Source: Thermoanaerobaculia bacterium
GTDB taxonomy: Bacteria; Acidobacteriota; Thermoanaerobaculia; UBA5066; DATFVB01
Length of the DNA: 45,552 nt
Assembly (NCBI GenBank): GCA_035717485.1
Contig: DASTIQ010000087.1
Coordinates: forward strand, 1 to 45,552
Direction of reading: 5' to 3'
The position numbers and the translations under genes are program-made. The notes beneath the pieces were generated by a model that was not told the origin of the DNA, did no database searches, and was given only the letters and a program-made list of their open reading frames with translations. This document shows positions 30,790-45,552 of the stretch, in pieces (position 1 is the first letter of the stretch; each line of letters starts with the position of its first letter).

Positions 30790-31500
30790 TCACGGCTCGT
30801 TTTCGATGATGCGCGTGCCCGCGGGCGGATGGATCGCGAACGCCGACGCGTCGAGCGGGGGTTCCGTCCGGAAGCCCTGGAACCGGAACTCCGTGCGGTC
30901 GCCCGCGGACGACTGGAACGACAGCGCCGCGGGAGACCCGTCCGGCGAAAGCGCGAGACGGATCCAGGAAACTTCCGACCCGCTCTGCTTCGGGGTGACG
31001 AGGATCGACGCTCCTTCGGGCCGCTCCTCGAGATCCAGGGTGTTGCGCTTGCGCAGGTCGTCGGCCGTCTCGAGGAAGATCAGGGGAAGCTGGGCCCGAT
31101 CCTCTTCGGACAGCGCCCGGACGGTCATCTGCCGCTCGGAGGGGGAGTAGAAGCGCGCGACCTTGCCGTCGAACGTGAAGGTCTTCTTCGGCGATTCGTA
31201 GTCGAACCGGAGGTTCTCCGGCGCCTGCACGACGATCTCGCCGCTTTCGCGGCGGCCCTTCGAGAACCCGGCGGGGGTGAAGGTCTGGACGAACGAGGCC
31301 CGGTGGGCCTTGCCGTCCCGGAAGTAGCGCGCCGCCCGCGCGAGTTCTCCGGCGGGATCCGCGGCGCCGGCCGCCGCGGCGAAGAGGAGCGCCGCCCCGG
31401 CCGCCGTCCACCGCGCGCGTGCGGTGAACGCGGCGTTTCTCGCGCGCCCGTCGGGTCCTGGTCTCGCGCGCCCGTCGGGCGCGACGGCCGCGTCTCTCAA
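30790..31500 (-). CDS. LolA-like outer-membrane lipoprotein carrier protein
   Basis: 236 residues from a TTG at 31500 that overlaps the purH stop as TTGA. No ATG or GTG occurs in frame before the signal sequence, so this TTG is the only plausible start. Residues ~30-48 are the hydrophobic signal core ([19 protein letters not shown]). The mature part fits the LolA fold: [49 protein letters not shown], then [11 protein letters not shown] and [19 protein letters not shown]. It should carry lipoproteins across the periplasm. The first 20 residues hold two copies of PDGRAR, encoded by an 18-bp direct repeat. Confidence 0.88.
31438..31455. repeat. 18-bp direct repeat, copy 1
   Basis: TCTCGCGCGCCCGTCGGG, identical to 31462-31479. 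It lies in the 5' coding part of the lolA-like gene. Confidence 0.85.
31462..31479. repeat. 18-bp direct repeat, copy 2
   Basis: Identical to 31438-31455, 24 bp apart start to start. This copy is embedded in the 17-bp palindrome CGCGCCCG-T-CGGGCGCG (31467-31483). A related core (GGCCCG-A-CGGGCC) occurs at 42491-42503 near the start of the DUF58 gene. Confidence 0.85.
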
Positions 31501-33089
31501 TGCCGGAAGTGCCGCCGGGGGGCGAGGAGGAAGGCGAGCTTCCTCTCGTCGGCGGCCGCGAAGATGTCCGCGTCGCGGATCGACCCGCCCGGCGCGACCA
31601 CGGCCGTCACGCCGGCGTCGGCGAGGAGATCGAGCCCGTCGCGGAACGGGAAGAACGCGTCGGACGCGGCGCTCGTGCCGTTGACCGGGAGGTTCGCCTT
31701 CATCACCGCGAGGCGGCAGGAATCGACCCGGCTCATCTGGCCGGCGCCGATCCCGACCGTCTGCCGGGCATTGGCGATCACGATCGCGTTCGACTTGACC
31801 CGGCGCGCGACGGTCCACGCGAGCTCGCAGGCGGCGCGCTCGATCGCGAGGGGCTTGCGCTCGGAGACCACCCGCCAGGCGGACGGATCGTCCGGCTCGT
31901 TGTCCTGTTCCTGCAGCAGCAGCCCTCCGCCGATCCGCTTCCAGTCGACGCCTCCATCCGGCGCCCGGCTGACGGGGAGCTGGAGGAGCCGGATGTTCGG
32001 TTTCTTCGCGAACGCGACCTTCGCCTCCTCCGTGAAAGCGTCGGCGGCGACCGCCTCGACGAAGTGCTGGAGCACGAGCGCGGCGACCGCGCCGTCGACG
32101 GTTCCCCGGATCGCGATGATCCCGCCGAAGGCGGCGAGCGGGTCGCACGCGAACGCGCGTCCGAACGCCTCGAGCGGGTTGTCCCCGACCGCGGCCCCGC
32201 AGGGATTGTTGTGCTTGACGATCACGGCGGCGCTCCCGCGGAGGTCGCGGGCGAGGCGCACGGCGGAGTCGACGTCGAGCAGGTTGTTGAACGAGAGCTC
32301 CTTTCCCTGGAGCTGCTGGAAACCGATGAGCTCGTCGGCGGCGGAGGCCCGATCCCGGTAGAGGGCGGCTTTCTGGTGCGGATTCTCGCCGTACCGGAGC
32401 GACGCCTGCTTCTCGAATCCGAAGAGGAGCGTCTGGGGAAACGGATCTCCTCCCGAGACCTCCCGCGAGAAGAAGTTCGCGATCGCGGAGTCGTAGACCG
32501 CGGTGCGGGCGAACGCCTTCGCCGCGAGCCGTTCGCGGGTCGCGGCCGACGTCCCGCCCGTCTCCCGGATCTCGGCGAGGACCGAGGAATAGTCGGCGGG
32601 ATCGACGAGCACCGCGACGTGGGCGTGGTTCTTCGCGGCCGCGCGGATCATCGCGGGACCGCCGACGTCGATCTTCTCGATCGCGGCCTTTCCGCGCGCC
32701 CCGTCCGCGACCGCCTTCTCGAACGGGTACAGGTTCACCGCGACGAGCTCGAACGGACGGATCTTCTGGTCGGCGAAATCCCGGGCGTGCCCCGGATCCC
32801 CCGGATCGCCGAGGATCCCTCCGAAGATCTTCGGATGGAGGGTCTTCACTCGCCCGCCGAAGATCTCCGGGAACTCCGTGATCTCCTCCGCGCGGGTCGC
32901 CGCGACGCCCTCGCCGCCGAGGTGCGCGGCCGTGCCCCCGGTCGACACGATCTCGACGCCGAGCGCCTGCAGCGCGCGGGCGAAGTCCGCGAGCCCCGTC
33001 CGGTCGGAGACCGACAGGAGCGCGCGGCGGACGCGCACGGGAGCGCTAGCGGGGGGCGCCGTCGACGACATAGGGTCCGTTTCGTTCAT
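31497..33089 (-). CDS. purH: Bifunctional AICAR transformylase / IMP cyclohydrolase
   Basis: 530 residues. The N-terminal IMP cyclohydrolase domain has RRALLSVSDRTGLADFARAL, EIVSTGGTAAHL and GGRVKTLHPKIFGGILG. The C-terminal formyltransferase domain has LRYGENPHQKAALYR, KELSFNNLLDVDSA, KHNNPCGAA and the end AFFPFRDGLD, GSIRDADI. It performs the last two steps of purine synthesis. Two ATGs are possible: 33089 (used here) and 33071. Both lie inside the 3' end of the upstream unknown gene, so translation is probably coupled. The stop overlaps the TTG of the lolA-like gene. Confidence 0.97.
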   Translation of the reverse strand: MNETDPMSSTAPPASAPVRVRRALLSVSDRTGLADFARALQALGVEIVSTGGTAAHLGGEGVAATRAEEITEFPEIFGGRVKTLHPKIFGGILGDPGDPGHARDFADQKIRPFELVAVNLYPFEKAVADGARGKAAIEKIDVGGPAMIRAAAKNHAHVAVLVDPADYSSVLAEIRETGGTSAATRERLAAKAFARTAVYDSAIANFFSREVSGGDPFPQTLLFGFEKQASLRYGENPHQKAALYRDRASAADELIGFQQLQGKELSFNNLLDVDSAVRLARDLRGSAAVIVKHNNPCGAAVGDNPLEAFGRAFACDPLAAFGGIIAIRGTVDGAVAALVLQHFVEAVAADAFTEEAKVAFAKKPNIRLLQLPVSRAPDGGVDWKRIGGGLLLQEQDNEPDDPSAWRVVSERKPLAIERAACELAWTVARRVKSNAIVIANARQTVGIGAGQMSRVDSCRLAVMKANLPVNGTSAASDAFFPFRDGLDLLADAGVTAVVAPGGSIRDADIFAAADERKLAFLLAPRRHFRH

Positions 33090-33636
33090 CGAGCTTCTTC
33101 GCCGGCCGGGCGTCTCCGCCGGCGCCCGTCCAGATCGCCCAGAGGAGGTTGGTCTCGTCGGCGACGATCCGCGCCGCCGCCGCATCCGCCGGGGCCGCCG
33201 CGAGATCCGCCCGCGCGGACCGGATGGACCGGGCGGCCGGACCCGGGTCGCCGGACGCGGAGGCGGCGGACACGCCCGGAATCCGGTACGGACCCGCGCT
33301 CGCCGACTCGAACGCCGCCTCGCTTCCGCGCGCGTCGGACAGCTCCGCGGAAAGCACGCCTCCGACGGCCGCGCCGATTCGGGCGATCGCCTCCGAGAAC
33401 GGCGCCCGGGCCAGGATCGAGCGCGAGATCGCCCGCGCCTCGCGCTCGAAGTCGGCCGGCGGCGGGCGGCGCGCCGCTTCCCGAACGGCCGCGAGGAATT
33501 CCTTCCGATATTTCACGATCATCGCCGACAGATCGGGAGGGGCCAGGCGCGTCCCGGCGATCGCGAGCTGGAGCGCGGCGCGATCCGATCCCGAGAAGGA
33601 TGCCGCAGCGAGGAGCAGCGAGGCCGCGAGTCGCAT
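33046..33636 (-). CDS. Exported protein of unknown function
   Basis: 196 residues; I do not recognise a family. It has a short signal peptide (MRLAASLLLAAASFSGS). Two features stand out: a helical middle (DLSAMIVKYRKEFLAAVREAARR, FEREARAISRSILARAPFSEAIARIGAAVGG), and a C-terminal block with Trp (IVADETNLLWAIWTGAGGDARPAKKLDERN). It overlaps the purH start by up to 44 bp. TAGAAT ends 9 nt before the ATG and no Shine-Dalgarno sequence is present, so it may head the transcript that carries purH and the lolA-like gene. Confidence 0.6.
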   Translation of the reverse strand: MRLAASLLLAAASFSGSDRAALQLAIAGTRLAPPDLSAMIVKYRKEFLAAVREAARRPPPADFEREARAISRSILARAPFSEAIARIGAAVGGVLSAELSDARGSEAAFESASAGPYRIPGVSAASASGDPGPAARSIRSARADLAAAPADAAAARIVADETNLLWAIWTGAGGDARPAKKLDERNGPYVVDGAPR

Positions 33637-33675: not shown

Positions 33676-34818
33676 TCACGGGAGCTCGACGATGCGTTCC
33701 CGCAGCTCGACGCCGCGCTCGCGAAGCGCCGAGAGCAGCTTCGCCGCGGCGGTCTCGTCGCGGCCGACGTGTTCGAGCGCGCGCACCCCCGGATCCGCGT
33801 AATCTCCGGCGGCGAGCATGCGCGCGACGATCGCGCACGGAAAGCCGGTCGTCCGCGCCATCGAGGTCGTGCCGGTCTCGCGGTCCGTCCGGTCCGTGAG
33901 CTCGAAGACGTGGCGGCGGCGCGCGCCTCCACGGGTTCCGTCGACGACGACCCGGAGGACCGTCAGCTCTTCGGCGCCCGCCGGGAGCTTCCACGCCGCG
34001 AAGAGGAGCCGCTCGGTCAGGTCGCGCGGCGAGACGGGAACGCCCCGGACGGAAACGGGCTTCTCGTCGAAGAAACCGGTCTCGCGAAAGACCCGCATCA
34101 GCTCGGCATGACCCGGATAGCGCATCGTCTTTTCCTTCATGTCGCGCGCCGGGATCGTCGAGAGCACGGTCCGGAGACCGTCGGTGAGGAACGCCTCGAG
34201 CGTCCCGACCCCTTCGAAATCGAGCTTTTCGATCTCCGAGAGCGCCGGCTTCACGACCAGGCGGCCGTTCTCGACGACGCGCGCGGGACGCGTGTATTCC
34301 TCGATCACGTCGGTCGCCGAGAAGACGATCGCGTATTCGTACGGCCAGCGCCGCACCGCCGGGAGGCCGCCGACGTAGATGACGAGGCTCTCGATCTCGT
34401 CGAGCTGCGCGTCGGCCCGGCCGGCGGCGAAGTTGGAAAGTCCCGGGGACACGCCGCAGTCGACGACCGCGGTGACGCCCTTCGCCCGGGCCTCCTCGTC
34501 GAGATCGAGGGGGTCTTCCGGCGCGAACGAGATGTCGGCGATCGGCTTGCCGGCGGCGATCACCGCGCGGAGCATGTTCCGCCCGAGGAATCCGGGAACG
34601 GCGCCCACGACGACGTCGGCCCCCGCGACGACTCGGCCGATCTCCTCCGCGGACGAGAGGTCCGCGGCGCGCGTCGAGAGGCGGGCGGAGGCCCGGAGCC
34701 GCCCGAGGGCCTCTTCCGAACGGTCGAAGACCGACACGGCGAATTCCGGATCCGCTGCGAGATCGCGCGCGATGACGCTCCCGACGAGCCCGCATCCGAG
34801 GACGGCGGCTTTCTTCAT
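33676..34818 (-). CDS. Saccharopine dehydrogenase-like oxidoreductase
   Basis: 380 residues. An N-terminal Rossmann fold (KKAAVLGCGLVGSVIARDLA) is followed by ADVVVGAVPGFLGRNMLRAVIAAGKPIADISF, VDCGVSPGLSNFAAGRA and a central catalytic/dimer domain (VIYVGGLPAVRRWPYEYAIVFSATDVIEEYTRPA). This matches the saccharopine dehydrogenase / lysine 6-dehydrogenase superfamily, which oxidises or reduces lysine-derived amines with NAD(P). Which reaction it performs cannot be told from sequence. TAGAAT ends 9 nt before the ATG and no Shine-Dalgarno sequence is present. Confidence 0.85.
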   Translation of the reverse strand: MKKAAVLGCGLVGSVIARDLAADPEFAVSVFDRSEEALGRLRASARLSTRAADLSSAEEIGRVVAGADVVVGAVPGFLGRNMLRAVIAAGKPIADISFAPEDPLDLDEEARAKGVTAVVDCGVSPGLSNFAAGRADAQLDEIESLVIYVGGLPAVRRWPYEYAIVFSATDVIEEYTRPARVVENGRLVVKPALSEIEKLDFEGVGTLEAFLTDGLRTVLSTIPARDMKEKTMRYPGHAELMRVFRETGFFDEKPVSVRGVPVSPRDLTERLLFAAWKLPAGAEELTVLRVVVDGTRGGARRRHVFELTDRTDRETGTTSMARTTGFPCAIVARMLAAGDYADPGVRALEHVGRDETAAAKLLSALRERGVELRERIVELP

Positions 34819-34891: not shown

Positions 34892-37681
34892 TCAGAACAA
34901 TTTCAGGATCAGCGCCGAAGCCGACACGCCGTGGATCCCGTGCGACACGACCGGGACGCCGACGTCGAAGCGGATCAGCGAATTGTTCCAGGGGCCGTTC
35001 AGCTGCCCCGAGATCCCCGCGCCCGAGTAGTACGCGTGGTGGAAGCCGGAGTACGCGTCGTTCAGGATCGCCTGGTCGTAGAGCGCCTCGAGCCGGATGA
35101 TGTTCTCGATGTTCAGGCCGTAGGAGAGGTTCATCACCCACGCCTGCCGCGTGCGGAGCGCGCCGCTCTGGTAGCCGCGGATCGGGTTCCCCGAAAACGC
35201 GCCGAACTCGTAGCGCGAGAACCGGTCGAGGTCGTTGCCGGAGAGATACGTCAGCCCCGCGTGGATCTTGCGGAAGCCGGTGAAGTAGTAATCCTTCGCG
35301 ATCGAGGCCGAATACTTCTCGTAGTCGCGCTGGGCGGGGGTGAACTCGGAAGCCCCCGGGATTCCCCAGAACGCCCACTCGTTGCGGCGGAAGCGCGAAT
35401 AGTCCAGCACTCCGTTGAAGCCGCTGACGTTGGCGGTCAGCTTCACCTCGTAGCCGAACGTGAACGTGTCGACCGGCGTGACGAATTCGTGCGCGGTGTC
35501 CGGGTCGCGCTGGTAGTCGTCCCATTTCGCGAAGAAGCCCGCGGACGCCTTGAGATACGGCCCGAGCGGATGGCCGACGTTGACCTGGAAGAGGGCCGGC
35601 ACGTGCTTCAGGCGCTCGTCCTTGACCTCCTTCCCGTCCCGGTAGGAGGCGTCTCCGAACGGAATCGCGAAACCGACCACGTCGGCCCCGAGATCGAACC
35701 GGGAGCCGAGGAACGCCGGATCGGTGTAGTTGGTCGTCAGCACCGCGCCCGCGAAGAACGTCGAGATCTGCTTTCCCTTGTGGAAGAGATCGAAATCGAA
35801 GTACTGGACGCCGAGGAGCGGGATCGGATAGCCGAGCGAGCCGTCGTAGAAGAATCCCGCGACTCCGAAGAGACTCTTCTTCGAGACGTACTCCTCGACG
35901 ACGCGCCCGCCCGGGCTGGCGGGATCCGGCACGAGGTACTTCAGGCCGTGATCGGTGTCGCGGACCATCTGCTTCTCGGACGCGTAGACCTCGGAGCGCC
36001 GGGCCGAGAAATCGGGAGGGTTGATCCGGACGTTCTTCAGGAGGACCGAGCGCTCGATCGCCGTCGTGCGTCCCGCCGTCGAGAAGACCTCCTCGCCCTT
36101 GATTTCGAGCGGGAGCACCGCGGAGGTCCCGGGGACGGGCCGGTAGAATTCGGTTTCGACGTTCGAGAGCGTCTCGCCCGTCAGGTTGACCTGCACCGAA
36201 CGGCGGCGGAGCAGCGCGAACGTCCTCGCGTCGATCCATGCCCGGCCCCGGTAGAGCGCTTTCTTCCCCGCCGAGGCCTTCGGCGTGAAGTCGACCTCCC
36301 AGGCGGGACGCCCCTCGACCGTCGCCCGTCCCGCGAGGGAGTAGACGTAGTCCTCGCCGAGCTCGATTTCGAGCGGAAGCGTCGTGACCTTCTCGGGCTG
36401 GAGAATCGGGATCTTCGGGAGGGTCTTGCCCTTCCACTTGATGCCGTTGACGTAGAACGTGCTCCAGGCCCAGTCGAAGTCCTTCCCCCGTTCCTTGAAG
36501 AGGGGGCCCTCGATCGTGAGGTCGAACGTCTCGTTGACCTCGGCGACCCGGAACCGGAGCGACGTCGTGAGGTCGGCCGTGTAGGACCGGACGAGGTCGT
36601 CCTGCGTGGCCTTCCACGCGCGCTCGTGGGCGACGATCTCCTCCGCCGTCAGCGCGCGAACGCTCCCGACCGAGACCTGCGCCTGGACCTCCCCGGGCTT
36701 CCTTTCCGGTACGAGACGGACGGCCGCCGGGCCGGACGCGAGATCGAGGTCGAGGAACTTCGCGCCGGCACCGAGCGCGAACGAGCGTTTGGCTCCGGAG
36801 GCGAGGTTCTCGACCTGCGCTTCCCGGTACGGGCCGCCGCCGGAGACGTCGACGCGGGTATTCCCCGGGCCCGAGGCTTCGACGAAGAGGATCGGCGCGA
36901 CCGCCTTCGCGTCGAAGAAGCGCGCCTCGTGCGCGGGCGACGGCGGCGGCTGGGGAGACACGTCGGGCCCGAGGTACGCCTGCGCGCGGACGAGCTCCGC
37001 CGGGAACGACGGATCCGGAGAGGAGCCGAAGAAGACGCGCTCCGCGCGGCGGGCGGCGAGATCGGCGAGGCCGGCGACCAGGGTCGTCCCGGATCCTCCG
37101 ACGGGCGACAGATCGAGCCAGAGCTCCGGGGAGCCGGGCAGCGGATGATCGCGGACCTCCGCGGCCGACGCGTCGGCCAGGAGCACCGCGTCGATTTCCG
37201 GGACGAGCGTCGGATCCTCGAGGAGGAGCCGGACGCGGTCGAGATCGCCCGGGGCGAGCCCGGCGGAGAGGGCGATGCGGACCTCGGGGCGAAGCCCGCG
37301 GACCGTCGCGGCCAGCCGTTTCACCTCGAAGCGCAGGCGGTCGAGCGCGGCGCCTTCGGGAGCCGGACCCGTGCCGGAGGGGAAGATGATCGACTCGACG
37401 TTCGGATGCGATTTGAGAGTCGCGGCGAGCTCGTCCGGATCGCCCCCGGCGTCGCGCACGAGGGCGGCCGGGATTCCCGCGAGCGAATCGAGGAGCGCCG
37501 CATCACCCGTCCGATAGACGGGCGAGGAAGCCGCCGGGGCTTTCGGCGGCGTCGCGCCGGGCGCCGCGTCGGTTCCGAGGCGGATGCCCTCCGCGGACGC
37601 GCCGCCCGCGGCGAGAAGGAGGGCGAACGCTCCGGAGAGCATCCGCCGCCGGCCGGCCCGCGCCGCGACGCCGGTCCTCAA
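34892..37681 (-). CDS. Large multi-domain outer-membrane beta-barrel protein, function unknown
   Basis: 929 residues from a TTG at 37681 (an ATG at 37642 also keeps the signal peptide, LSGAFALLLAAGGASA). Four parts can be seen. Residues ~50-230 alternate strands and helices in a TIM-barrel-like way (NVESIIFPSG, LRPEVRIALSAGL, IDAVLLAD). Residues ~235-330 are a beta-sandwich. Residues ~350-600 resemble a LolA/RseB-type lipoprotein-binding fold (YTADLTTSLRFRVAEVNETF, WKGKTLPKIPILQPEKVTT, RGRAWIDARTFALLRR). Residues ~600-929 have the alternating aromatic strands of an outer-membrane barrel and end in LILKLF, with a terminal Phe as in barrel proteins. The combination suggests handling of lipids or lipoproteins at the outer membrane, but this is inference. 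It lies between recA and the oxidoreductase gene. Confidence 0.75.
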   Translation of the reverse strand: MRTGVAARAGRRRMLSGAFALLLAAGGASAEGIRLGTDAAPGATPPKAPAASSPVYRTGDAALLDSLAGIPAALVRDAGGDPDELAATLKSHPNVESIIFPSGTGPAPEGAALDRLRFEVKRLAATVRGLRPEVRIALSAGLAPGDLDRVRLLLEDPTLVPEIDAVLLADASAAEVRDHPLPGSPELWLDLSPVGGSGTTLVAGLADLAARRAERVFFGSSPDPSFPAELVRAQAYLGPDVSPQPPPSPAHEARFFDAKAVAPILFVEASGPGNTRVDVSGGGPYREAQVENLASGAKRSFALGAGAKFLDLDLASGPAAVRLVPERKPGEVQAQVSVGSVRALTAEEIVAHERAWKATQDDLVRSYTADLTTSLRFRVAEVNETFDLTIEGPLFKERGKDFDWAWSTFYVNGIKWKGKTLPKIPILQPEKVTTLPLEIELGEDYVYSLAGRATVEGRPAWEVDFTPKASAGKKALYRGRAWIDARTFALLRRRSVQVNLTGETLSNVETEFYRPVPGTSAVLPLEIKGEEVFSTAGRTTAIERSVLLKNVRINPPDFSARRSEVYASEKQMVRDTDHGLKYLVPDPASPGGRVVEEYVSKKSLFGVAGFFYDGSLGYPIPLLGVQYFDFDLFHKGKQISTFFAGAVLTTNYTDPAFLGSRFDLGADVVGFAIPFGDASYRDGKEVKDERLKHVPALFQVNVGHPLGPYLKASAGFFAKWDDYQRDPDTAHEFVTPVDTFTFGYEVKLTANVSGFNGVLDYSRFRRNEWAFWGIPGASEFTPAQRDYEKYSASIAKDYYFTGFRKIHAGLTYLSGNDLDRFSRYEFGAFSGNPIRGYQSGALRTRQAWVMNLSYGLNIENIIRLEALYDQAILNDAYSGFHHAYYSGAGISGQLNGPWNNSLIRFDVGVPVVSHGIHGVSASALILKLF

Positions 37682-37899: not shown

Positions 37900-38991
37900 T
37901 CAAGCCTTCTTCTTGGCCGCGTCACGCTCCGGGGCGGGTTCCGGCGCGGGAGCGAGAGCGGGGGACAATCCCAGGTGCTCCCGGATCTTCCGTTCGATCT
38001 CCGCGGCCAACTCGGGGTTCTCCTTGAGGAACTGCTTCGCGTTCTCGCGCCCCTGGCCGATCCGCATGTCGCCGTACGAGAGCCACGAGCCGGACTTCTC
38101 GATCAGCTTGGCCTCCGTCCCGAGGTCGAGCAGCTCGCCGCCGCGGGAGATCCCCTCGCCGTAGTTGATGTCGAATTCGGCCTGGCGGAAAGGGGAAGCG
38201 ACCTTGTTCTTGACGATCTTCACCTTCGTCCGCGAGCCGACGACCGTCTCGCCGTCCTTGATCGAGGCGATCCTCCGGATGTCGATCCGGACGGAAGAAT
38301 AGAACTTGAGCGCGCGGCCGCCCGTCGTCGTCTCGGGGTTGCCGAACATCACGCCGATCTTTTCGCGGATCTGGTTGATGAAGATGAGGCACGTGTTCGA
38401 CTTCGACACGATCGCGGTGAGCTTCCGGAGGGCCTGGGACATCAGGCGCGCCTGGAGGCCCATCTGCGCCTCGCCCATCTCGCCTTCGAGCTCGGCCTTC
38501 GGCACGAGGGCCGCGACCGAGTCGACGACGACGACGTCGATCGCGCCGGAGCGGATCAGCATCTCCGCGATCTCGAGCGCCTGTTCACCCGAGTCGGGCT
38601 GCGAGACGAGCAGGTTGTCGGTGTCGACGCCGAGCTTCTTCGCGTACTCGGCGTCCATGGCGTGCTCGGCGTCGATGAACGCGGCGATCCCGCCCTTCTT
38701 CTGCGCCTGGGCGATGATCTGGAGCGAGAGGGTCGTCTTGCCCGACGACTCGGGACCGAAGATCTCGATGACGCGGCCCCGGGGAACGCCGCCGACTCCG
38801 AGCGCGGCGTCCACGGCGATCGAGCCGGTCGGGATCGAGGAGATCAGGACCGGCGGATGGTCGCCGAGGCGCATGATCGCGCCCTTTCCGTACTGGCGAT
38901 CGATCTGGCTGAGCGCGGTCTCGACGGCGCGCATCTTTTCGGCGAGGACGGGGTTGGCGGGGGCGCCGGGAACGGGTTTGATCTGAGGCAT
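37900..38991 (-). CDS. recA: Recombinase A
   Basis: 363 residues. It has Walker [14 protein letters not shown], the ATP-cap region [20 protein letters not shown], Walker [10 protein letters not shown], and loop L2 sequence [30 protein letters not shown], then a lysine- and proline-rich tail. It forms filaments on single-stranded DNA for recombination and SOS signalling. The ATG at 38991 is chosen because AGGAG lies 9 nt upstream. An in-frame ATG at 39024 is the end of a perfect TATAAT box and is therefore not a start. I did not find a recognisable LexA operator. Confidence 0.98.
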
Positions 38992-39022
38992 GCTCGAATT
39001 CTCCTTCACGTATTCGCCGGGC

Positions 39023-39028
39023 ATTATA
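39023..39028 (-). promoter_or_regulatory. -10 box (TATAAT) of recA
   Basis: A perfect TATAAT on the minus strand, 31 bp before the recA ATG at 38991. No TTGACA-like -35 stands at 16-18 bp, so an activator or other factor may help. Confidence 0.65.
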
Positions 39029-39083: not shown

Positions 39084-39127
39084 GATGAGGAGATGAGGAC
39101 GGCTTTTTCTACGCCCCGCTCCCGCTG

Positions 39128-39667
39128 ATGTCAAGGGCGAGCCTGCGGCGGGCGTGGAAGGAACGCCGGATATCGACCCTCCTCGCGACCGGGTTCGGCA
39201 TCGGCATGATCCCGTTTGCCCCGGGGACCTGGGGGAGCCTGGAAGGGCTCGCGGTCGGCTTCGTCGGCCTCGCCGTCTTCGCCCCCCGTCTCTCGCCGTC
39301 GGGAGGCATGATCTTTTCGTGTATTGTCGGCGCCGCGATCGCGGCGGCCGGCGTCGTCGTCTCGTCGCGCACCGAAGCCCTCGCCGACGCGCGCGATCCC
39401 GGGGCGATCGTCATCGACGAGGTGGCCGGGCAGATCCTGGCGTTCGCGCCGGCGAGCTTCATGATGGCGGGCCTCGCGAGCGGCCGCACGCCGTGGTGGA
39501 TCGTCTTCGGCGCTCCGTTCCTCCTGTTCCGCCTCTTCGACATCTGGAAGCCGGGCCTCATCGGCCGGCTGCAGGACCTCCCGGGGGGATGGGGAATCGT
39601 GGCCGACGACGTGGCCGCGGGAATCCTCGCGGGCGCGATCACGTACGGCATCGCGAGGGTGTGGTGA
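39128..39667 (+). CDS. pgpA: Phosphatidylglycerophosphatase A
   Basis: 179 residues. Family marks are TGFGIGMIPFAPGTWGSLEG near the N-terminus, IVIDEVAGQILAF (acidic metal-binding motif) and FRLFDIWKPG, all conserved in PgpA. It is an inner-membrane enzyme that removes phosphate from phosphatidylglycerophosphate. No ribosome site precedes the ATG at 39128. A tiny upstream ORF of 11 codons (39093-39128, [11 protein letters not shown]) ends in a TGATG overlap with this start and might couple translation. Its stop overlaps the murB GTG. Confidence 0.94.
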   Translation: MSRASLRRAWKERRISTLLATGFGIGMIPFAPGTWGSLEGLAVGFVGLAVFAPRLSPSGGMIFSCIVGAAIAAAGVVVSSRTEALADARDPGAIVIDEVAGQILAFAPASFMMAGLASGRTPWWIVFGAPFLLFRLFDIWKPGLIGRLQDLPGGWGIVADDVAAGILAGAITYGIARVW

Positions 39668-40560
39668 CGTTCGCGCTTTCCCCCGCCGACGGAGACGTCC
39701 GGGCGAACGAGCCGCTCGAGCGGCACACGACCCTCCGGATCGGGGGACCCGCGGAGACCTTCGTGGTCGCGCGCTCGATCGAGGCGCTCGCGGCGGCGCT
39801 TCGCGCCGCCCGGGAGGAGCGAAAACCGCTCCGCATCCTCGGCAAGGGCTCGAACGTCCTCGTCGCCGACGACGGCGTTCCCGGGTTCGTCGTCGTGCTC
39901 GAGGGAGAGTTCCAGCGGGTGGAGATCGACGGGGAGCGCATCGCCGCCGGCGCCGGCGCTTCCCTCGGCGGCGTGTGCGCGCGGGCGGCGCGCGCGGGAC
40001 TCTCCGGGATCGAGGCGATCTCCGGGATTCCGTCGTCGATCGGCGGCGCGGTCCGCATCAACGCGGGCGCGTACGGCGGCGAGATGTTCGACGTGCTCGA
40101 GAGCGTGACCCTCGTCTCCCCGGACGGCGCGCTCGAGGAGCGACCCGCCTCGGCGATCCCGCACGGGTATCGATGGACCTCTCTCGTGGGCTCGGCGGAG
40201 ATCGTCTGCCGGGCCCTCCTGCACCTGCGTTCCTCGCCGCCGGAGGCGATCGAGGCGCGAATGCGTGAGGTGACGGAGAAGCGCCGGGGGGCGCTTCCCG
40301 CGCAGCCGAATGCCGGCAGCATTTTCAAGAACCCGTCCGGACGGTTCGCGGGTAAACTCCTCGAAGACTGCGGCTTGAAGGGCGTCGTGCGAGGGGGGGC
40401 GGAGATCTCGGACCGTCACGCCAACGTCATCGTGAACCGGGGGTCGGCGCGCGCCGCCGACGTCCTGGAGCTGATGCGTCTGATGCGCCGGAGCGTTCTC
40501 GAACGATTCGGAATCGAGCTCGAGCCGGAGGTCGAGCTCGTCGGCGTGCCGTGGCCGTGA
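39664..40560 (+). CDS. murB: UDP-N-acetylenolpyruvoylglucosamine reductase
   Basis: 298 residues. The FAD-binding fold shows HTTLRIGGPAETFVVA, ILGKGSNVLVADDGVPG, SGIPSSIGGAVRINAGAYGGEM and GYRWTSLVG. The catalytic Ser is in NAGSIFKNPSG, with a late acid in EPEVELVG. It reduces enolpyruvyl-UDP-GlcNAc to UDP-MurNAc with NADPH, a cytoplasmic step of peptidoglycan synthesis. The length and AGSIFKNP form fit the type II enzymes without the extra loop. The GTG at 39664 overlaps the pgpA stop (GTGA), and its own stop overlaps the next GTG. Confidence 0.97.
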   Translation: MTFALSPADGDVRANEPLERHTTLRIGGPAETFVVARSIEALAAALRAAREERKPLRILGKGSNVLVADDGVPGFVVVLEGEFQRVEIDGERIAAGAGASLGGVCARAARAGLSGIEAISGIPSSIGGAVRINAGAYGGEMFDVLESVTLVSPDGALEERPASAIPHGYRWTSLVGSAEIVCRALLHLRSSPPEAIEARMREVTEKRRGALPAQPNAGSIFKNPSGRFAGKLLEDCGLKGVVRGGAEISDRHANVIVNRGSARAADVLELMRLMRRSVLERFGIELEPEVELVGVPWP

Positions 40561-41525
40561 CGTTCCGCGCGGTGCTGCTCGCCGGGGGCGCCGGGACGCG
40601 GCTCTGGCCGCTTTCGACCGAGGCGGAGCCGAAGCCATTTCTCCGGCTGCGGGGAGAGCGGAGCCTGCTCCAGGACGCCTGGGCGCGGGTCGCTCCGGTC
40701 GCGTCGCGGGTCTGCGTCGCGACCTCCGAGCGCTACGCGGCGCGCACGCGGACGGAACTCCCGCATCTCTCTGCCGGGGATCTCTTCCTCGAGCCGTCGC
40801 GGCGCGACACGGCGCCGGCGATCGTCGCGGCGGCCCTGGCCCTCGCCGCCGAAGGCGACGAGCCGGTCGTCTTCCTGCCCGCGGACCAGACGGTGGGCGA
40901 TCCGGCGGCGTTCTCGCGGTGCCTGGCGGAGGCCGCCGGGGCCGCCGCGCGGGAGCCGGCCGTCGTTCTCCTCGGAATCCGGCCCACGCGTGCCGAGACC
41001 GAATTCGGGTACGTCGAGGTCGAAACGGGCCCCCGGCCGGCGCGGGTTCGCCGGTTCGTCGAGAAGCCTTCCCGGGAGAGGGCGGAGGAATACGTTCGCG
41101 CGGGCAATTTCCTCTGGAACGGCGGGATCTTCGCGTTCCGCCCGTCCTCGCTCGTGGGCGTGCTCGAACGGGCGGCGCCGGAATTGCTCGCGGCCTGCCG
41201 CGGTTATCTCGATCGCCCCTCGCCCGAGGCCTGGGAGCGGATTCCGGCGATTTCCTTCGATCATGCGGTGATGGAGAAGACGAAAAACGCGATCTGTGTT
41301 CCCTGCGAAGCGGGGTGGAACGACGTGGGATCGTACCGGGCGCTCAAAGAGCTCAAAGGGACCGACGCGTCCGGCAACCTGGTCCTTTCGGACCGTCCGG
41401 TCGTCGTCGAGGGGGTGCGGGACTCGATCGTGGCGGTTTCGGAGGCGGGCGCCCTCGTCCTGCCCTTCGCGCGCGAAGGGGAGCTGCGCGAGCGCGTCGC
41501 GCGATTGTCGGGGGAGGGAGAGTGA
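40557..41525 (+). CDS. manC: Mannose-1-phosphate guanylyltransferase
   Basis: 322 residues. The nucleotidyltransferase signature LLAGGAGTRLWPLSTEAEPKP lies at the N-terminus, followed by EPSRRDTAPAIVAAAL, FLPADQTV, FGYVEVE, RFVEKPS and AGNFLWNGGIFAF. It makes GDP-mannose from mannose-1-phosphate and GTP for polysaccharide or glycolipid synthesis. It lacks the C-terminal isomerase domain of bifunctional ManC proteins. The GTG at 40557 overlaps the murB stop as GTGA; a GTG at 40551 is possible but less likely. The stop overlaps the moxR start in the same way. Confidence 0.92.
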   Translation: MTFRAVLLAGGAGTRLWPLSTEAEPKPFLRLRGERSLLQDAWARVAPVASRVCVATSERYAARTRTELPHLSAGDLFLEPSRRDTAPAIVAAALALAAEGDEPVVFLPADQTVGDPAAFSRCLAEAAGAAAREPAVVLLGIRPTRAETEFGYVEVETGPRPARVRRFVEKPSRERAEEYVRAGNFLWNGGIFAFRPSSLVGVLERAAPELLAACRGYLDRPSPEAWERIPAISFDHAVMEKTKNAICVPCEAGWNDVGSYRALKELKGTDASGNLVLSDRPVVVEGVRDSIVAVSEAGALVLPFAREGELRERVARLSGEGE

Positions 41526-42451
41526 CCGTCGGTCTCGACCGGCTGCGCGAGACCGTCGGATCCGTGTTCCGCGGCAATTCCGGGGCGATCGACCTCGTCC
41601 TGATCGCGATCCTCTCGCGGGGCCACGTGCTGATCGAGGACGTCCCGGGCGTCGGGAAGACGACGCTCGCGCGCGCGATCGGCAAGGCGCTCGACCTCAA
41701 GTTCACCCGCATCCAGTTCACGAGCGATACGCTGCCGGCGGACGTTCTCGGGGTCTCGATCTTCGACGCGGCCGAAAAGCGGTTCGTCTTCCATCCGGGG
41801 CCGATCTTCGGCAACGTCGTCCTCGCCGACGAGATCAACCGGGCGACGCCGAAGACGCAGTCCGCGCTCCTCCAGGCGATGAACGAGGGGTGCGTCTCGA
41901 CCGACGAGGGAACCCTCGAACTGCCCCGCCCTTTCGTCGTCATCGCGACGCAGAATCCGGTCGAGTACCTGGGCACCTATCCGCTCCCCGAGTCCCAGCT
42001 CGACCGCTTCTTCCTGCGCCTCTCGCTCGGATACCCCCCCGCCCGCGAGGAGAAGGACCTCCTGCAGCGCGGCGGCGCCGAGCGGACGCTCGACTCCGTG
42101 ATGCCGGTGCTCCATCCGGACGATCTCGTCGCGCTCCAGGCGAAGGTCGAAGGGGTGCGCGTCTCGGAGAAACTCCTCGACTACGTCTACGCGCTGATCG
42201 AAGCGACCCGCCGGCGCTCCGACCTGCGCCTTCCCGTGTCGACCCGCGGCGCGCAGGCCTTCTATCGGGCGATCCAGGCGCGGGCGCTCGTCGCGGGACG
42301 CGACTACGCGCTGCCGGAGGACGCGCAGACCGTCGCCGGGCCGGTCCTTTCGCACCGCATCCTGTCGATCTCTTCGGACGGCTTCGGGACGGGTCCGCGC
42401 GAGCGGGAAGTGATCCGGACGATCCTGGAGCAGACGCCGGTTCCGGTATAG
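41522..42451 (+). CDS. MoxR-family AAA+ ATPase
   Basis: 309 residues. Walker A GVGKTT at residues 43-48, Walker B NVVLADEINRATPKTQSALLQAM, sensor 1 VIATQNPVEYLGTYPLPESQLDRF, and a C-terminal lid domain with RLPVSTRGAQAFYRA. MoxR proteins act as chaperone-like ATPases that activate or assemble partner complexes, commonly with VWA or DUF58 proteins. The next two genes encode such partners. The GTG start at 41522 overlaps the manC stop; GGGGAGGGA lies just upstream. Confidence 0.94.
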   Translation: MTVGLDRLRETVGSVFRGNSGAIDLVLIAILSRGHVLIEDVPGVGKTTLARAIGKALDLKFTRIQFTSDTLPADVLGVSIFDAAEKRFVFHPGPIFGNVVLADEINRATPKTQSALLQAMNEGCVSTDEGTLELPRPFVVIATQNPVEYLGTYPLPESQLDRFFLRLSLGYPPAREEKDLLQRGGAERTLDSVMPVLHPDDLVALQAKVEGVRVSEKLLDYVYALIEATRRRSDLRLPVSTRGAQAFYRAIQARALVAGRDYALPEDAQTVAGPVLSHRILSISSDGFGTGPREREVIRTILEQTPVPV

Positions 42452-42457
42452 CCGGGA

Positions 42458-43510
42458 ATGAGCGTCGAGTCTCGAGCCGCGAGTCGCGAGGGCCCGACGG
42501 GCCACCCGGCGCAACGTCCCCTCACCCGCCTGATTCCGCGCTGGCACCTCCGGATCACGAACTTCGGGCTCGGCTACATCCTGATGACCCTCCTCGTCGC
42601 GATCGCGGCGACGAACACGGCCAACAACGGGCTGTACACCATTCTCGCCGGGCTGCTCGCGGGCATGATCGTCTCCGGCGTCGTGTCGCGGCGGAATCTG
42701 CGGGCGGTGCGCTGCGCCGTGGAGCAGAACGGAGAGATCTTCGCGGGGCGGCCCGCGGCGATCACCGTGACCCTGAAGAACACGTCCCCCGCCATGACGG
42801 CGCAGGGGATCTGGTTCCTCCACGAGGCGCTGCCGGGGCCGCTGTACGTCGCTCCTCTCCGTCCGGGCGCGGAGCGTCGCTATTCGCTGGAAGCGGTTTT
42901 CCCGAGGCGCGGGGTGTTCTCCGGGGGCGACTCCGGCCTGATGAGCCGGTTCCCGGTGGGACTCTTCCGGAAGTATCGGGACGCCGCGTGGCCGCGTCCG
43001 ATCGTCGTCTATCCCGATCCGGTCCGGAGCGCGCGCCGTGACGACGCCGGAGATTCGCCGATGGGCGCGGCGTCGTCTCTGCGGCGCCGCGGGTTCGGTC
43101 CCGAGGTCCGGACGCTCCGGGAGTTCGTGTCGGGAGACGACGTCCGCGACCTGCACTGGAAACAGTCCGCGCGGCTCCAGAAATGGATCGTCCGGGAGCG
43201 GCATGACGCGCGGTCGCGGCGCGTCGTGTTCGAGGTGGAGAACGCGGTCGCCGATCCGCTCGATCCGGTGGAGATCGCGGCCGTCGAGCGCGCGATCGCG
43301 GTCACCGCGGGCGAGGCGCTCGCGCTGATCGAGGCCGGAGGAGAGGCGGGCCTCGCGGCGCGCGGCGTGTCGGTCCCCCCGGGGGGCGGGGCGGGCCAGC
43401 GGCGACGCATTCTCGACGCCCTCGCGAGTCTCGAGATCCATGCCGCCGCCTCGGCGCCACCCTTTCCGCCGCCGCGGCCCGGGGAGAGCCGCCGCGAGGC
43501 CGCCGCATGA
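42458..43510 (+). CDS. DUF58 protein of the MoxR-transglutaminase module
   Basis: 350 residues. After a polar N-terminus, two membrane helices (about residues 37-55 and 58-76) precede a beta domain and the DUF58 signature REFVSGDDVRDLHWKQSARL, then LQKWIVRERHD. The C-terminal half is related to VWA domains. It is found next to MoxR and transglutaminase genes in many bacteria and is thought to act with them at the membrane. The first 25 residues (VESRAASREGPTGHPAQ) look unlike the family and are encoded by short repeats, including GGCCCG-A-CGGGCC. The gene starts 6 bp after moxR and overlaps the next gene by ATGA. Confidence 0.9.
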   Translation: MSVESRAASREGPTGHPAQRPLTRLIPRWHLRITNFGLGYILMTLLVAIAATNTANNGLYTILAGLLAGMIVSGVVSRRNLRAVRCAVEQNGEIFAGRPAAITVTLKNTSPAMTAQGIWFLHEALPGPLYVAPLRPGAERRYSLEAVFPRRGVFSGGDSGLMSRFPVGLFRKYRDAAWPRPIVVYPDPVRSARRDDAGDSPMGAASSLRRRGFGPEVRTLREFVSGDDVRDLHWKQSARLQKWIVRERHDARSRRVVFEVENAVADPLDPVEIAAVERAIAVTAGEALALIEAGGEAGLAARGVSVPPGGGAGQRRRILDALASLEIHAAASAPPFPPPRPGESRREAAA

Positions 43511-45552
43511 GCGAGCCGTACGCCGATCCGCTTCGCGCCGAGCACCAGCGGGCGCTCCTGCCGCTCGCCGCGGTCGCTCCGGCGGCCCTGCCCTGGACGG
43601 GCGCCGCCTCCTACGCCGCCCTCGCGGTCTACGAAGCGCTCCTGGCGGCGGTCTGGATCCGCGCGCGCCGCGGCCGGCCGCTCTCGATCTCGAACGCGGC
43701 CTTGAACGTGCTCGCGCTCGCCTACGTCGCGTGGTTCTTCCTCGCGGCGCGCGCGCTCCACGCGGGGCTCGTGCGGACCGCGTCGAATCTCCTCCTGTTC
43801 ACCGCCGCCGCCAAGCTCGTCTCGATGAAGAACCGCCGGGAGGAGAACCTGACGCTCCTCCTCTGCTTCTTCCTCGCGCTCGATTCCGCGTCGACGTCGA
43901 CGCACGTTCTCTCCCTGGTTTTCCTCGCGATCCTCGGCGTCGTGGGGTTCCGGACTCTCGCCCGGATCTCCGTGCTCGCGGACTTCGACCGGGCGCCTCC
44001 CGCAGGAGCGCTCGGCCGCGTCCCGAGCTGGGGAATCGCATCGGCGTCCGTCGCCGCGACGGCGATCGTCGCGGTGCCGCTCTTCATGGCCTTCCCGCGA
44101 CTCCAGAGCCCGTTCGCGGTCGCGCCGTTTCCGAAACAGTCGGTCGACGGCTCCTTCTTCACGTCGGACCGCGTCGACCTCGAGACGTTCTCCTCGACCA
44201 AGCACAGCGACCGGATCCTGCTTCGCGTCCAGATTCCGGAGGGCGAGCTCCCGGACGCGCTGCGGCTCCGGGAGGCGACCTTCAACCGCTATCTCCACGG
44301 CCACTGGATCCGCGAGGGGATGGTGTCGTCCCGCCTCCGGGAGAGCGCCGACGGCAGGATCGAGATTCCGCCGCAGTACGCGACGGCGGTTCCGGCGCCT
44401 CGGCCCCGTCCCGAGCGGAAGATCTCCGTCGAGACCTCTTCCTTCACCCCCGGCTTCCTCTTCGTTCCGTACGGGACCCGGGCGATCACGGCCGGAGGCA
44501 CGCCGCTTTCGATCGCCTCCGACGCGACGATCGCGTACTCGGGTCCGCCGAGCGACCGGGGCTATTCCGCCGAATACACGCTCCAGACCGACGGCGCGGG
44601 GCCGGGGCGGACTTCCGTGCCTCCGCACGACGTCCCGCCCGAGGTCGCGAGCCTCGCCCGCCGGATCGTCGCCGGGGCCGCGACTCCGGAGGAGAAGGCG
44701 CGGCGTCTCCTCGCCTACCTCGGGAGGGGATTCACGTACCGCGTCGACGTCCCGGAGGCGGTCGGCGACCCCGTGGTCGATTTCCTGACGCGCACGCGGG
44801 CCGGGCACTGCGAGTACTTCGCGAGCGCGCTCGCCCTCATGATGCGCGCCGCGGGAATTCCGGCCCGGCTGGCGACCGGGTCGCTCGGGGGCGAGATGGG
44901 GCCGCTCACCTCCGAGATCCTCGTTCGCGGCGGGAACCTCCACGCGTGGGTGGAGGCGAGTCTCGACGGCGAGACCTTCCGTATGTTCGATCCCACGCCG
45001 GCCGAGGGGCGCCCGCGAATCGTCTCGGTTTCGCTGTGGCGCCGGATCGCGGAGATCGGAAACGAGATCGAGTTCTTCTACGACCGGAACATCCTCGGCT
45101 TCAGCACGCTCGAGCAGGTCCAGCTCGTCGAGGCCGCCCGCCAGGCTTTCGCCGGCCTCGAGAGGGCGGGCGCGCGCGTCGGCGCCGTCGCCCGCGAGTG
45201 GCGGGGACGGGCCGCGGCGATCGCCGGCCTCCTGCTCCTGGCGGCGGCCGCGGCGGCTCTGGCGAGGAGGAGACGCCGGGTCCCGCCCGCGACCCGCGCG
45301 TACCTGCGCCTGCGCCGCCTGCATGCGAGGCGGATCGGGCCGCTCCCCGATTCCGCGCCCTCCGGCGCCGTGATCCGCGGTTTCGCCCGGGCCGGACGGG
45401 AAGCGGGTGTCGCGGCGAGGAAAGTCGTGGAGATCTACCGGGCGGAGGCGTTCGGGGGAGCGACCGCCGATCCGGAAACCCTCCGCGAAATCCGCCGGCT
45501 CGTCCGCGCCCTGCGGAAGACGGCCGCGGCGGCGGCGGTCCTCCTCGCGCTC
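43507..45552 (+). CDS. TgpA-like membrane transglutaminase (partial at 3' end)
   Basis: 682 codons are present and the frame is open at the window edge. The N-terminal part (to about residue 200) has several membrane helices (ALNVLALAYVAWFFLAARAL, LTLLLCFFLAL, VLSLVFLAILGVVGF, TAIVAVPLFMAFP) as in DUF3488/TgpA proteins. A periplasmic transglutaminase-like domain follows with C435 (RAGHCEYFAS), H479 (NLHAWVEA) and D495 (MFDPTPAEG), a complete catalytic triad. A last membrane helix near residue 580 (AAAIAGLLLLAAAAAAL) precedes a basic cytoplasmic tail. The role may be cross-linking or cleavage in the envelope; the substrate is unknown. The ATG overlaps the DUF58 stop. Confidence 0.92.
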   Translation, partial: MSEPYADPLRAEHQRALLPLAAVAPAALPWTGAASYAALAVYEALLAAVWIRARRGRPLSISNAALNVLALAYVAWFFLAARALHAGLVRTASNLLLFTAAAKLVSMKNRREENLTLLLCFFLALDSASTSTHVLSLVFLAILGVVGFRTLARISVLADFDRAPPAGALGRVPSWGIASASVAATAIVAVPLFMAFPRLQSPFAVAPFPKQSVDGSFFTSDRVDLETFSSTKHSDRILLRVQIPEGELPDALRLREATFNRYLHGHWIREGMVSSRLRESADGRIEIPPQYATAVPAPRPRPERKISVETSSFTPGFLFVPYGTRAITAGGTPLSIASDATIAYSGPPSDRGYSAEYTLQTDGAGPGRTSVPPHDVPPEVASLARRIVAGAATPEEKARRLLAYLGRGFTYRVDVPEAVGDPVVDFLTRTRAGHCEYFASALALMMRAAGIPARLATGSLGGEMGPLTSEILVRGGNLHAWVEASLDGETFRMFDPTPAEGRPRIVSVSLWRRIAEIGNEIEFFYDRNILGFSTLEQVQLVEAARQAFAGLERAGARVGAVAREWRGRAAAIAGLLLLAAAAAALARRRRRVPPATRAYLRLRRLHARRIGPLPDSAPSGAVIRGFARAGREAGVAARKVVEIYRAEAFGGATADPETLREIRRLVRALRKTAAAAAVLLAL

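Follow-up and report, generated by a model that had tools for sequence, protein, structure and literature searches.

The window considered here, a stretch of 45,552 nucleotides from a Thermoanaerobaculia bacterium of the phylum Acidobacteriota (contig DASTIQ010000087.1 of assembly GCA_035717485.1), carries on its minus strand a gene for an outer-membrane protein of 929 residues. On the predicted structures, this protein represents a family of POTRA-less members of the Omp85 superfamily, with a half-barrel of the LolA_like/RseB type in the place of the POTRA domains and a dead glycosidase module capping the periplasmic end. The gene and its parts are laid out as follows.

34892..37681, minus strand: gene for the 929-residue outer-membrane protein, with a TTG start, the C-terminus ...LKLF and homologues in related genomes
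37592..37681, minus strand: signal peptide, residues 1-30 (MRTGVAARAGRRRMLSGAFALLLAAGGASA), read from the sequence and from a helix at residues 6-25 in the model of residues 1-345, with a putative cleavage site
36950..37582, minus strand: degenerate glycoside-hydrolase-type (beta/alpha)8 barrel, residues 34-244, from the model of residues 1-345, Foldseek and a PslG profile match of relatives
36707..36928, minus strand: beta-sandwich of the glycosidase-like module, residues 252-325, from the model and from Foldseek alignments to GH30 that span nearly the whole target
35984..36646, minus strand: LolA_like/RseB-type domain, residues 346-566, in the place of POTRA domains, from PF17131, MucB_RseB in relatives, hhalign and PDB 4z48
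34895..35878, minus strand: Omp85-type beta-barrel, residues 602-929, with 15-16 predicted strands, from Foldseek and hhalign
35216..35230, minus strand: LDRFS motif, residues 818-822, aligned with the ERF segment ahead of Omp85 loop 6; D819 and R820 are kept in 63 of 63 homologues
35171..35182, minus strand: IRGY motif, residues 834-837, aligned with the (V)RGF of Omp85 loop 6; G836 is kept in 63 of 63

The reading frame is intact over 929 codons counted from TTG, and it occurs once in the genome. TTG appears preferable as the start, because initiation at the in-frame ATG at residue 14 would leave the signal peptide without a basic n-region. A chance open reading frame (ORF) is excluded and the gene is a conserved one, because the protein is 79-80% identical to its same-genus homologues and matches were found in 54 of 61 related genomes, mostly as one copy each. 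Contigs were also scanned with a 10-row alignment, which gave matches; a query with the single protein found nothing there, and a 39-row alignment contained no sufficiently conserved stretch. A profile search of 396 sampled Acidobacteriota genomes placed the family in 163; among the weakest matches, with E near 1e-8, some probably reflect the LolA-like part alone. The contigs with matches belong to Acidobacteriota, many of the closest ones to the class Thermoanaerobaculia, and the family spans the phylum. All 63 homologues have F, L, W or Y at the final aligned position, and the window protein itself ends in Phe. Divergent second copies (paralogues) sit beside the main gene in three Thermoanaerobaculia genomes (L032:1834-4860, L034:5734-8511 and L047). 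At locus L226 (genome G410), separate ORFs of 348 and 720 residues encode the glycosidase-like module and the LolA-like/barrel part, through a gene split, a frameshift or an assembly error; genome G363 may be alike.

Searched alone, the window protein has no match over cut-off in Pfam, NCBIfam or the PDB, and its domains became recognisable only once homologues from other classes were added. AlphaFold2 modelling of the full chain with 39 homologues (mean pLDDT 82) gave a helix at residues 12-26, an alpha/beta region at 55-245, a beta-sandwich at 252-325, a helix at 346-363 followed by about ten long strands up to residue 553, and a barrel at 602-928. When residues 1-345 were modelled separately, with 54 homologues (pLDDT 88.4, pTM 0.84), the result showed eight beta/alpha units forming a complete TIM barrel, together with the beta-sandwich. 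Models and profiles thus bear out a preliminary description of the gene, made from the letters of the window, in which a signal peptide, a strand/helix N-terminal region, a beta-sandwich, a LolA/RseB-like centre and a barrel ending in Phe followed one another in that order. The barrel is predicted where it had been placed, in residues 600-929, and the searches gave no match to a characterised family of different role. We regard the structure and homology of the family as well supported, with little doubt left.

The barrel proved to be of the Omp85 type. When the full model was compared with the PDB using Foldseek, the best 50 matches were all to BamA or TamA (E 1.2e-11 for BamA; TM 0.62 for the TamA barrel 4n74), and hhalign gave 85.8% (E 5.3e-6) against BamA barrels of the same clade, compared with 0.1% and 1.0% for unrelated profiles. 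The hhalign alignment sets IRGY opposite the loop-6 RGF and a YDQA segment opposite the F-x-D-x-G strand. At the loop-6 position, which agrees with the (V)RG[FY] signature, the glycine is invariant (63/63), F or Y follows it in 44 of 63 homologues, and the preceding residue is R in only 23 and H in 18. The full-chain model has five strands after this motif, the same number that follows loop 6 in 16-stranded Omp85 barrels. A PDB sequence search with the barrel profile returned nothing, so the assignment rests on structure, profile-profile comparison and motifs. The Pfam Omp85 model (PF01103) does not match the window protein at E values up to 1; it does match three other places in the window genome and one to nine places in each of 26 relatives. 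We attribute this miss to the sensitivity of the model, the defining feature of the superfamily being the membrane barrel itself (PMC4104836), which is present here. The protein has no POTRA domains, the LolA-like and glycosidase-like domains standing there instead, and it is therefore not assigned to BamA or TamA. The preliminary description was right about the presence of a barrel; what it missed was the BamA/TamA type and the position of the LolA-like domain in the place of POTRA.

The central domain combines a half-barrel with a helix and matches families of the LolA/LolB/RseB fold superfamily. In the window protein PF17131 (LolA_like) stays under its cut-off (E 0.011), but it is seen weakly in 27 of 39 homologues; MucB_RseB (PF03888) exceeds its cut-off in four relatives (L200, L203, L204 and L207), and the domain matches PDB 4z48 with E 1.1e-4. 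Against stand-alone LolA_like proteins of the phylum hhalign gave 97.1%, with 1.0% for BamA barrels as a control. Close kinship to canonical LolA (PF03548) was rejected at 0.5%, and the domain is therefore placed in the RseB/LolA_like branch of this fold; it is no copy of LolA.

The preliminary description had listed a TIM-like region and a beta-sandwich; both are present, but they make up one module, with a catalytically degenerate glycoside-hydrolase fold. Foldseek comparison of the N-terminal model with the PDB found members of GH27, GH30 and GH97, a GH39-like enzyme and amylases, with E values from 9e-9 (GH27, GH30 and GH39-like at 1e-8 to 1e-7). A profile of relatives from other classes matches the GH39 protein PslG (PDB 5bx9) with E 1.1e-6, aligned through the WNEP motif, and GH42 exceeds its Pfam cut-off in one relative (L225). 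The (beta/alpha)8 barrel and beta-sandwich of clan GH-A are thus in place, but the window protein lacks the catalytic acid/base Glu at the end of strand 4. Even among the 18 most enzyme-like relatives, the Glu of WNEP is kept in one and lost in 17. An active glycosidase at the N-terminus was rejected on these grounds; because the acid/base residue is lost, most members carry a dead glycosidase. The part ahead of the LolA-like domain is reduced to about 235-250 residues in several clades. The homologues of this kind at L211-L215 and L041-L045 are about 820-845 residues long.

The genes around the locus in the window, and the related clusters referred to below, are these.

37900..39024, minus strand: recA, upstream of the gene and a conserved neighbour in much of the class
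33676..34818, minus strand: saccharopine-dehydrogenase-like gene, directly downstream
31497..33185, minus strand: purH, between the gene and LolA
30790..31500 (start codon not fixed), minus strand: LolA gene, matched by PF03548 at 30832-31305 with E 1.9e-19
L265:1890-19500 with L266:1-3066 (genome G404), L261/L262 (G175) and L263/L264 (G354): aryl-polyene cluster loci in Luteitalea-type genomes

Neighbouring genes were chosen by conservation and GC-frame, clustering of all ORFs having been dominated by antisense ORFs of the high-GC DNA. The minus-strand ORFs at 39109-45324 were set aside as antisense artefacts of plus-strand MurB, nucleotidyl-transferase, MoxR and DUF58 genes. A separate LolA gene on the same strand had been noted at 3.4 kb; its PF03548 match lies about 3.6 kb from the 3' end of our gene. 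No second LolA was found in the window genome or in several of the relatives, and the window LolA is likely to be the carrier partner of the protein. The gene stands between recA and a purH-LolA-YajQ-polyprenyl synthase run, an arrangement kept in other families of the order. Among the loci compared, the saccharopine-dehydrogenase-like gene occurs near the homologue only in the window's genus, apart from a weak match on the opposite strand in L142. Positions 26134-28596, about 6 kb away from the gene, encode an 820-residue protein with MacB_PCD and FtsX domains (a MacB-type permease).

Elsewhere in the phylum the family has more specialised company. In three genomes that we take to be of Luteitalea type (G175, G354 and G404), the homologue is flanked by a polysaccharide deacetylase or acyl carrier protein (ACP) gene on one side and a ketosynthase (KS) gene on the other. 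The same cluster holds a ketoreductase (KR), a second KS, a second LolA, an MMPL exporter, a methyltransferase, a chorismatase, an AMP ligase and an acyltransferase. It resembles the aryl-polyene clusters for xanthomonadin and arcuflavin, which are made of the same gene types (PMC3949708). Relatives L204, L205 and L220 are in such a cluster; the window gene itself is not. At L210 and L217, KS, LolA and DUF3261 genes precede the homologue on the same strand, and in those genomes DUF3261, the family of the LolB-like ApeN of aryl-polyene export (PMC8253772), is found only at this locus; it was not found anywhere in the Luteitalea-type genomes. In further families, MlaE and/or a PlsC-type acyltransferase lie within about 6 kb of the homologue. 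At L193, L197, L203, L209 and L224, an MlaE-like lipid permease is encoded on the same strand 4-6 kb away, and at four of these five loci a PlsC-type acyltransferase adjoins it.

In a tree built from the LolA-like and barrel regions, the three LolA contexts occupy separate clades. Genomes of 3-7 Mb that carry one or two LolA genes would, by a rough estimate, have one of them within 6 kb through chance alone in about 1% of cases or fewer; LolA contexts in three clades, out of roughly 25 families examined, exceed this expectation. LolB was detected in none of 26 relatives by a search whose E. coli control was positive.

Because an Omp85 barrel is joined to a lipid-carrier half-barrel, LolA and lipid-export genes recur as neighbours and no LolB was detected in the 26 relatives, we place the protein at the outer-membrane end of a lipid route. 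Our preferred reading, to which we give a probability of about one half, is that it serves as a one-piece outer-membrane acceptor and inserter for a lipid ligand carried by LolA. LolA, encoded nearby, would carry a hydrophobic ligand across the periplasm, and this ligand could be the acyl chain of a lipoprotein or that of a glycolipid or pigment lipid. The LolA-like domain would then take the ligand mouth-to-mouth, as LolB does in E. coli, and the adjoining Omp85 barrel would free it through its lateral seam into the outer membrane, perhaps as far as the outer leaflet. A glycan, either a sugar head group or peptidoglycan, would probably be bound by the dead glycosidase module without being cut. 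Only for the clade that has the aryl-polyene cluster is a specialised pigment lipid a likely ligand. The preliminary description had proposed lipid or lipoprotein transfer within one chain, and this central idea is strengthened by fold and gene context, from which we infer the role. A more detailed version, a phylum-wide lipid port in a single chain in which LolA hands acylated cargo to the LolA-like domain, the barrel inserts or flips it through a lateral gate, the protein replaces LolB where that is absent, and it was recruited in place of ApeN for aryl-polyene export in Luteitalea-type bacteria, is possible and we put it forward tentatively.

Several observations weigh against this reading. 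More than half of the 396 sampled Acidobacteriota genomes lack the family and seven of the 61 related genomes searched have no copy of the gene, so it is not the only lipoprotein route. Lipid and Lol genes are missing from the vicinity of many Acidobacteriota copies, and in the window LolA belongs to a purH-LolA-YajQ housekeeping run, so that it may be close by accident. Genes of the Mla type and thiolases are widespread, and cross-matches to thiolases account for some of the KS counts. The central domain resembles RseB/LolA_like proteins and not canonical LolA, and folds of the RseB type can also serve as sensors or scaffolds. Finally, the count of 15-16 barrel strands is a DSSP count on a predicted model.

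The rival that survives best, though we consider it unlikely, is a BamA/TamA-like assembly factor for outer-membrane proteins in which the LolA-like and glycosidase-like domains substitute for POTRAs as chaperone or scaffold. It shares the barrel superfamily, and outer-membrane protein assembly is the general function proposed for Omp85 members of unknown role (PMC4104836). However, all 26 relatives already have one to nine Pfam Omp85 places, the protein has no POTRA, and its recurrent neighbours are LolA, KS/ACP, MMPL, DUF3261 or MlaE/PlsC. More doubtful still is a general conduit for phospholipids or glycolipids unrelated to LolA, in which the domains are read correctly and the LolA neighbourhoods are accidental. 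The linkage to recA, purH and YajQ in the window does resemble a frozen gene order, and the MlaE/PlsC contexts of other families would suit such a conduit; yet LolA recurs beside the gene in three separate clades, and is the second LolA copy of the genome in two of them.

A type-Vd-like system, in which the barrel displays a glycan-binding former glycosidase on the cell surface, seems quite improbable. PlpD-type proteins carry a POTRA between passenger and barrel, which this family does not; moreover, the glycosidase module is shortened in several clades while the LolA-like and barrel parts stay conserved, and the acid/base Glu is lost in nearly all of the most enzyme-like relatives. The resemblance to PlpD lies in an enzyme-type domain N-terminal to an Omp85 barrel (PMC4104836). 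Least probable is a sensor of envelope stress or glycans, with an RseB-like lipid- or peptide-sensing domain, a dead glycosidase and the barrel as anchor: MucB_RseB is above cut-off in four relatives and dead enzymes often act as sensors, but no recurrent sigma factor, anti-sigma factor or kinase stood out in the clusters examined, whose lists were not annotated exhaustively, and an Omp85 barrel would be unusual as a mere anchor.

If the acceptor/inserter reading is correct, the family would provide an Omp85 protein whose cargo is a lipid delivered by LolA within a fused chain. It would bear on how lipoproteins are inserted without LolB and on the passage of aryl-polyene and similar lipids through the outer membrane. 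Because a Lol-type lipid-carrier fold and an Omp85 barrel are fused naturally in it, the protein links the two machineries and points to a concrete gene.

Set against known systems, the family represents a new architecture within a known superfamily. With BamA, TamA, FhaC and PlpD of the Omp85/TpsB superfamily it shares the barrel fold, the RG[FY] position in loop 6, the five strands that follow, a D in the next strand and a C-terminal aromatic residue; it differs from them in lacking POTRA, in carrying LolA-like and dead glycosidase domains and in being missed by PF01103. Ten Omp85 subfamilies have been published, the non-POTRA types being WD40, patatin, metallo and no N-terminus, and none of the ten has a LolA-like or glycosidase domain (PMC4104836); the present family adds a subfamily that sequence models miss. 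A TIM barrel with beta-sandwich is common to it and to PslG, a GH39 endoglycosidase, whereas the acid/base Glu is replaced in nearly all members and the module is fused to envelope domains.

The claim that no named family has this layout holds for the full layout but not for half of it, which the Bacteroidota family DUF5686 (PF18939), the nearest named family, appears to share. Stand-alone LolA-like proteins match the DUF5686 model at positions of about 60-260, and a POTRA-Omp85 protein (L152:1147-3231) matches it at 337-570, which suggests that DUF5686 is a LolA-like region followed by an Omp85 barrel and could be re-annotated as such. DUF5686 lacks the glycosidase module, and the matches of our family to it cover only the LolA-like part. 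They fall below cut-off, with 22.3 bits for the best family member against 39.2 needed and no match above cut-off in the 396 Acidobacteriota genomes, so membership is not claimed. The literature searched neither names DUF5686 nor assigns it a function, and the present architecture offers a reading for it.

Aryl-polyene export in E. coli employs ApeL (LolA-like), ApeM (of the resistance-nodulation-division, RND, type) and ApeN (DUF3261, LolB-like) (PMC8253772), and the same gene types stand beside family members in the three Luteitalea-type genomes and at L210/L217. The E. coli cluster lists no Omp85-type protein, unlike the Luteitalea-type clusters, which include a member of this family. A further parallel is the BBJ23-29 cluster of Borrelia, in which BBJ25 is a POTRA-less Omp85 barrel, BBJ28 a separate LolA-like protein and a further component an ABC transporter resembling MacB/LolCDE (PMC13078400). 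There an analogous set is spread over separate genes, whereas here the LolA-like domain and the barrel are joined in one chain.

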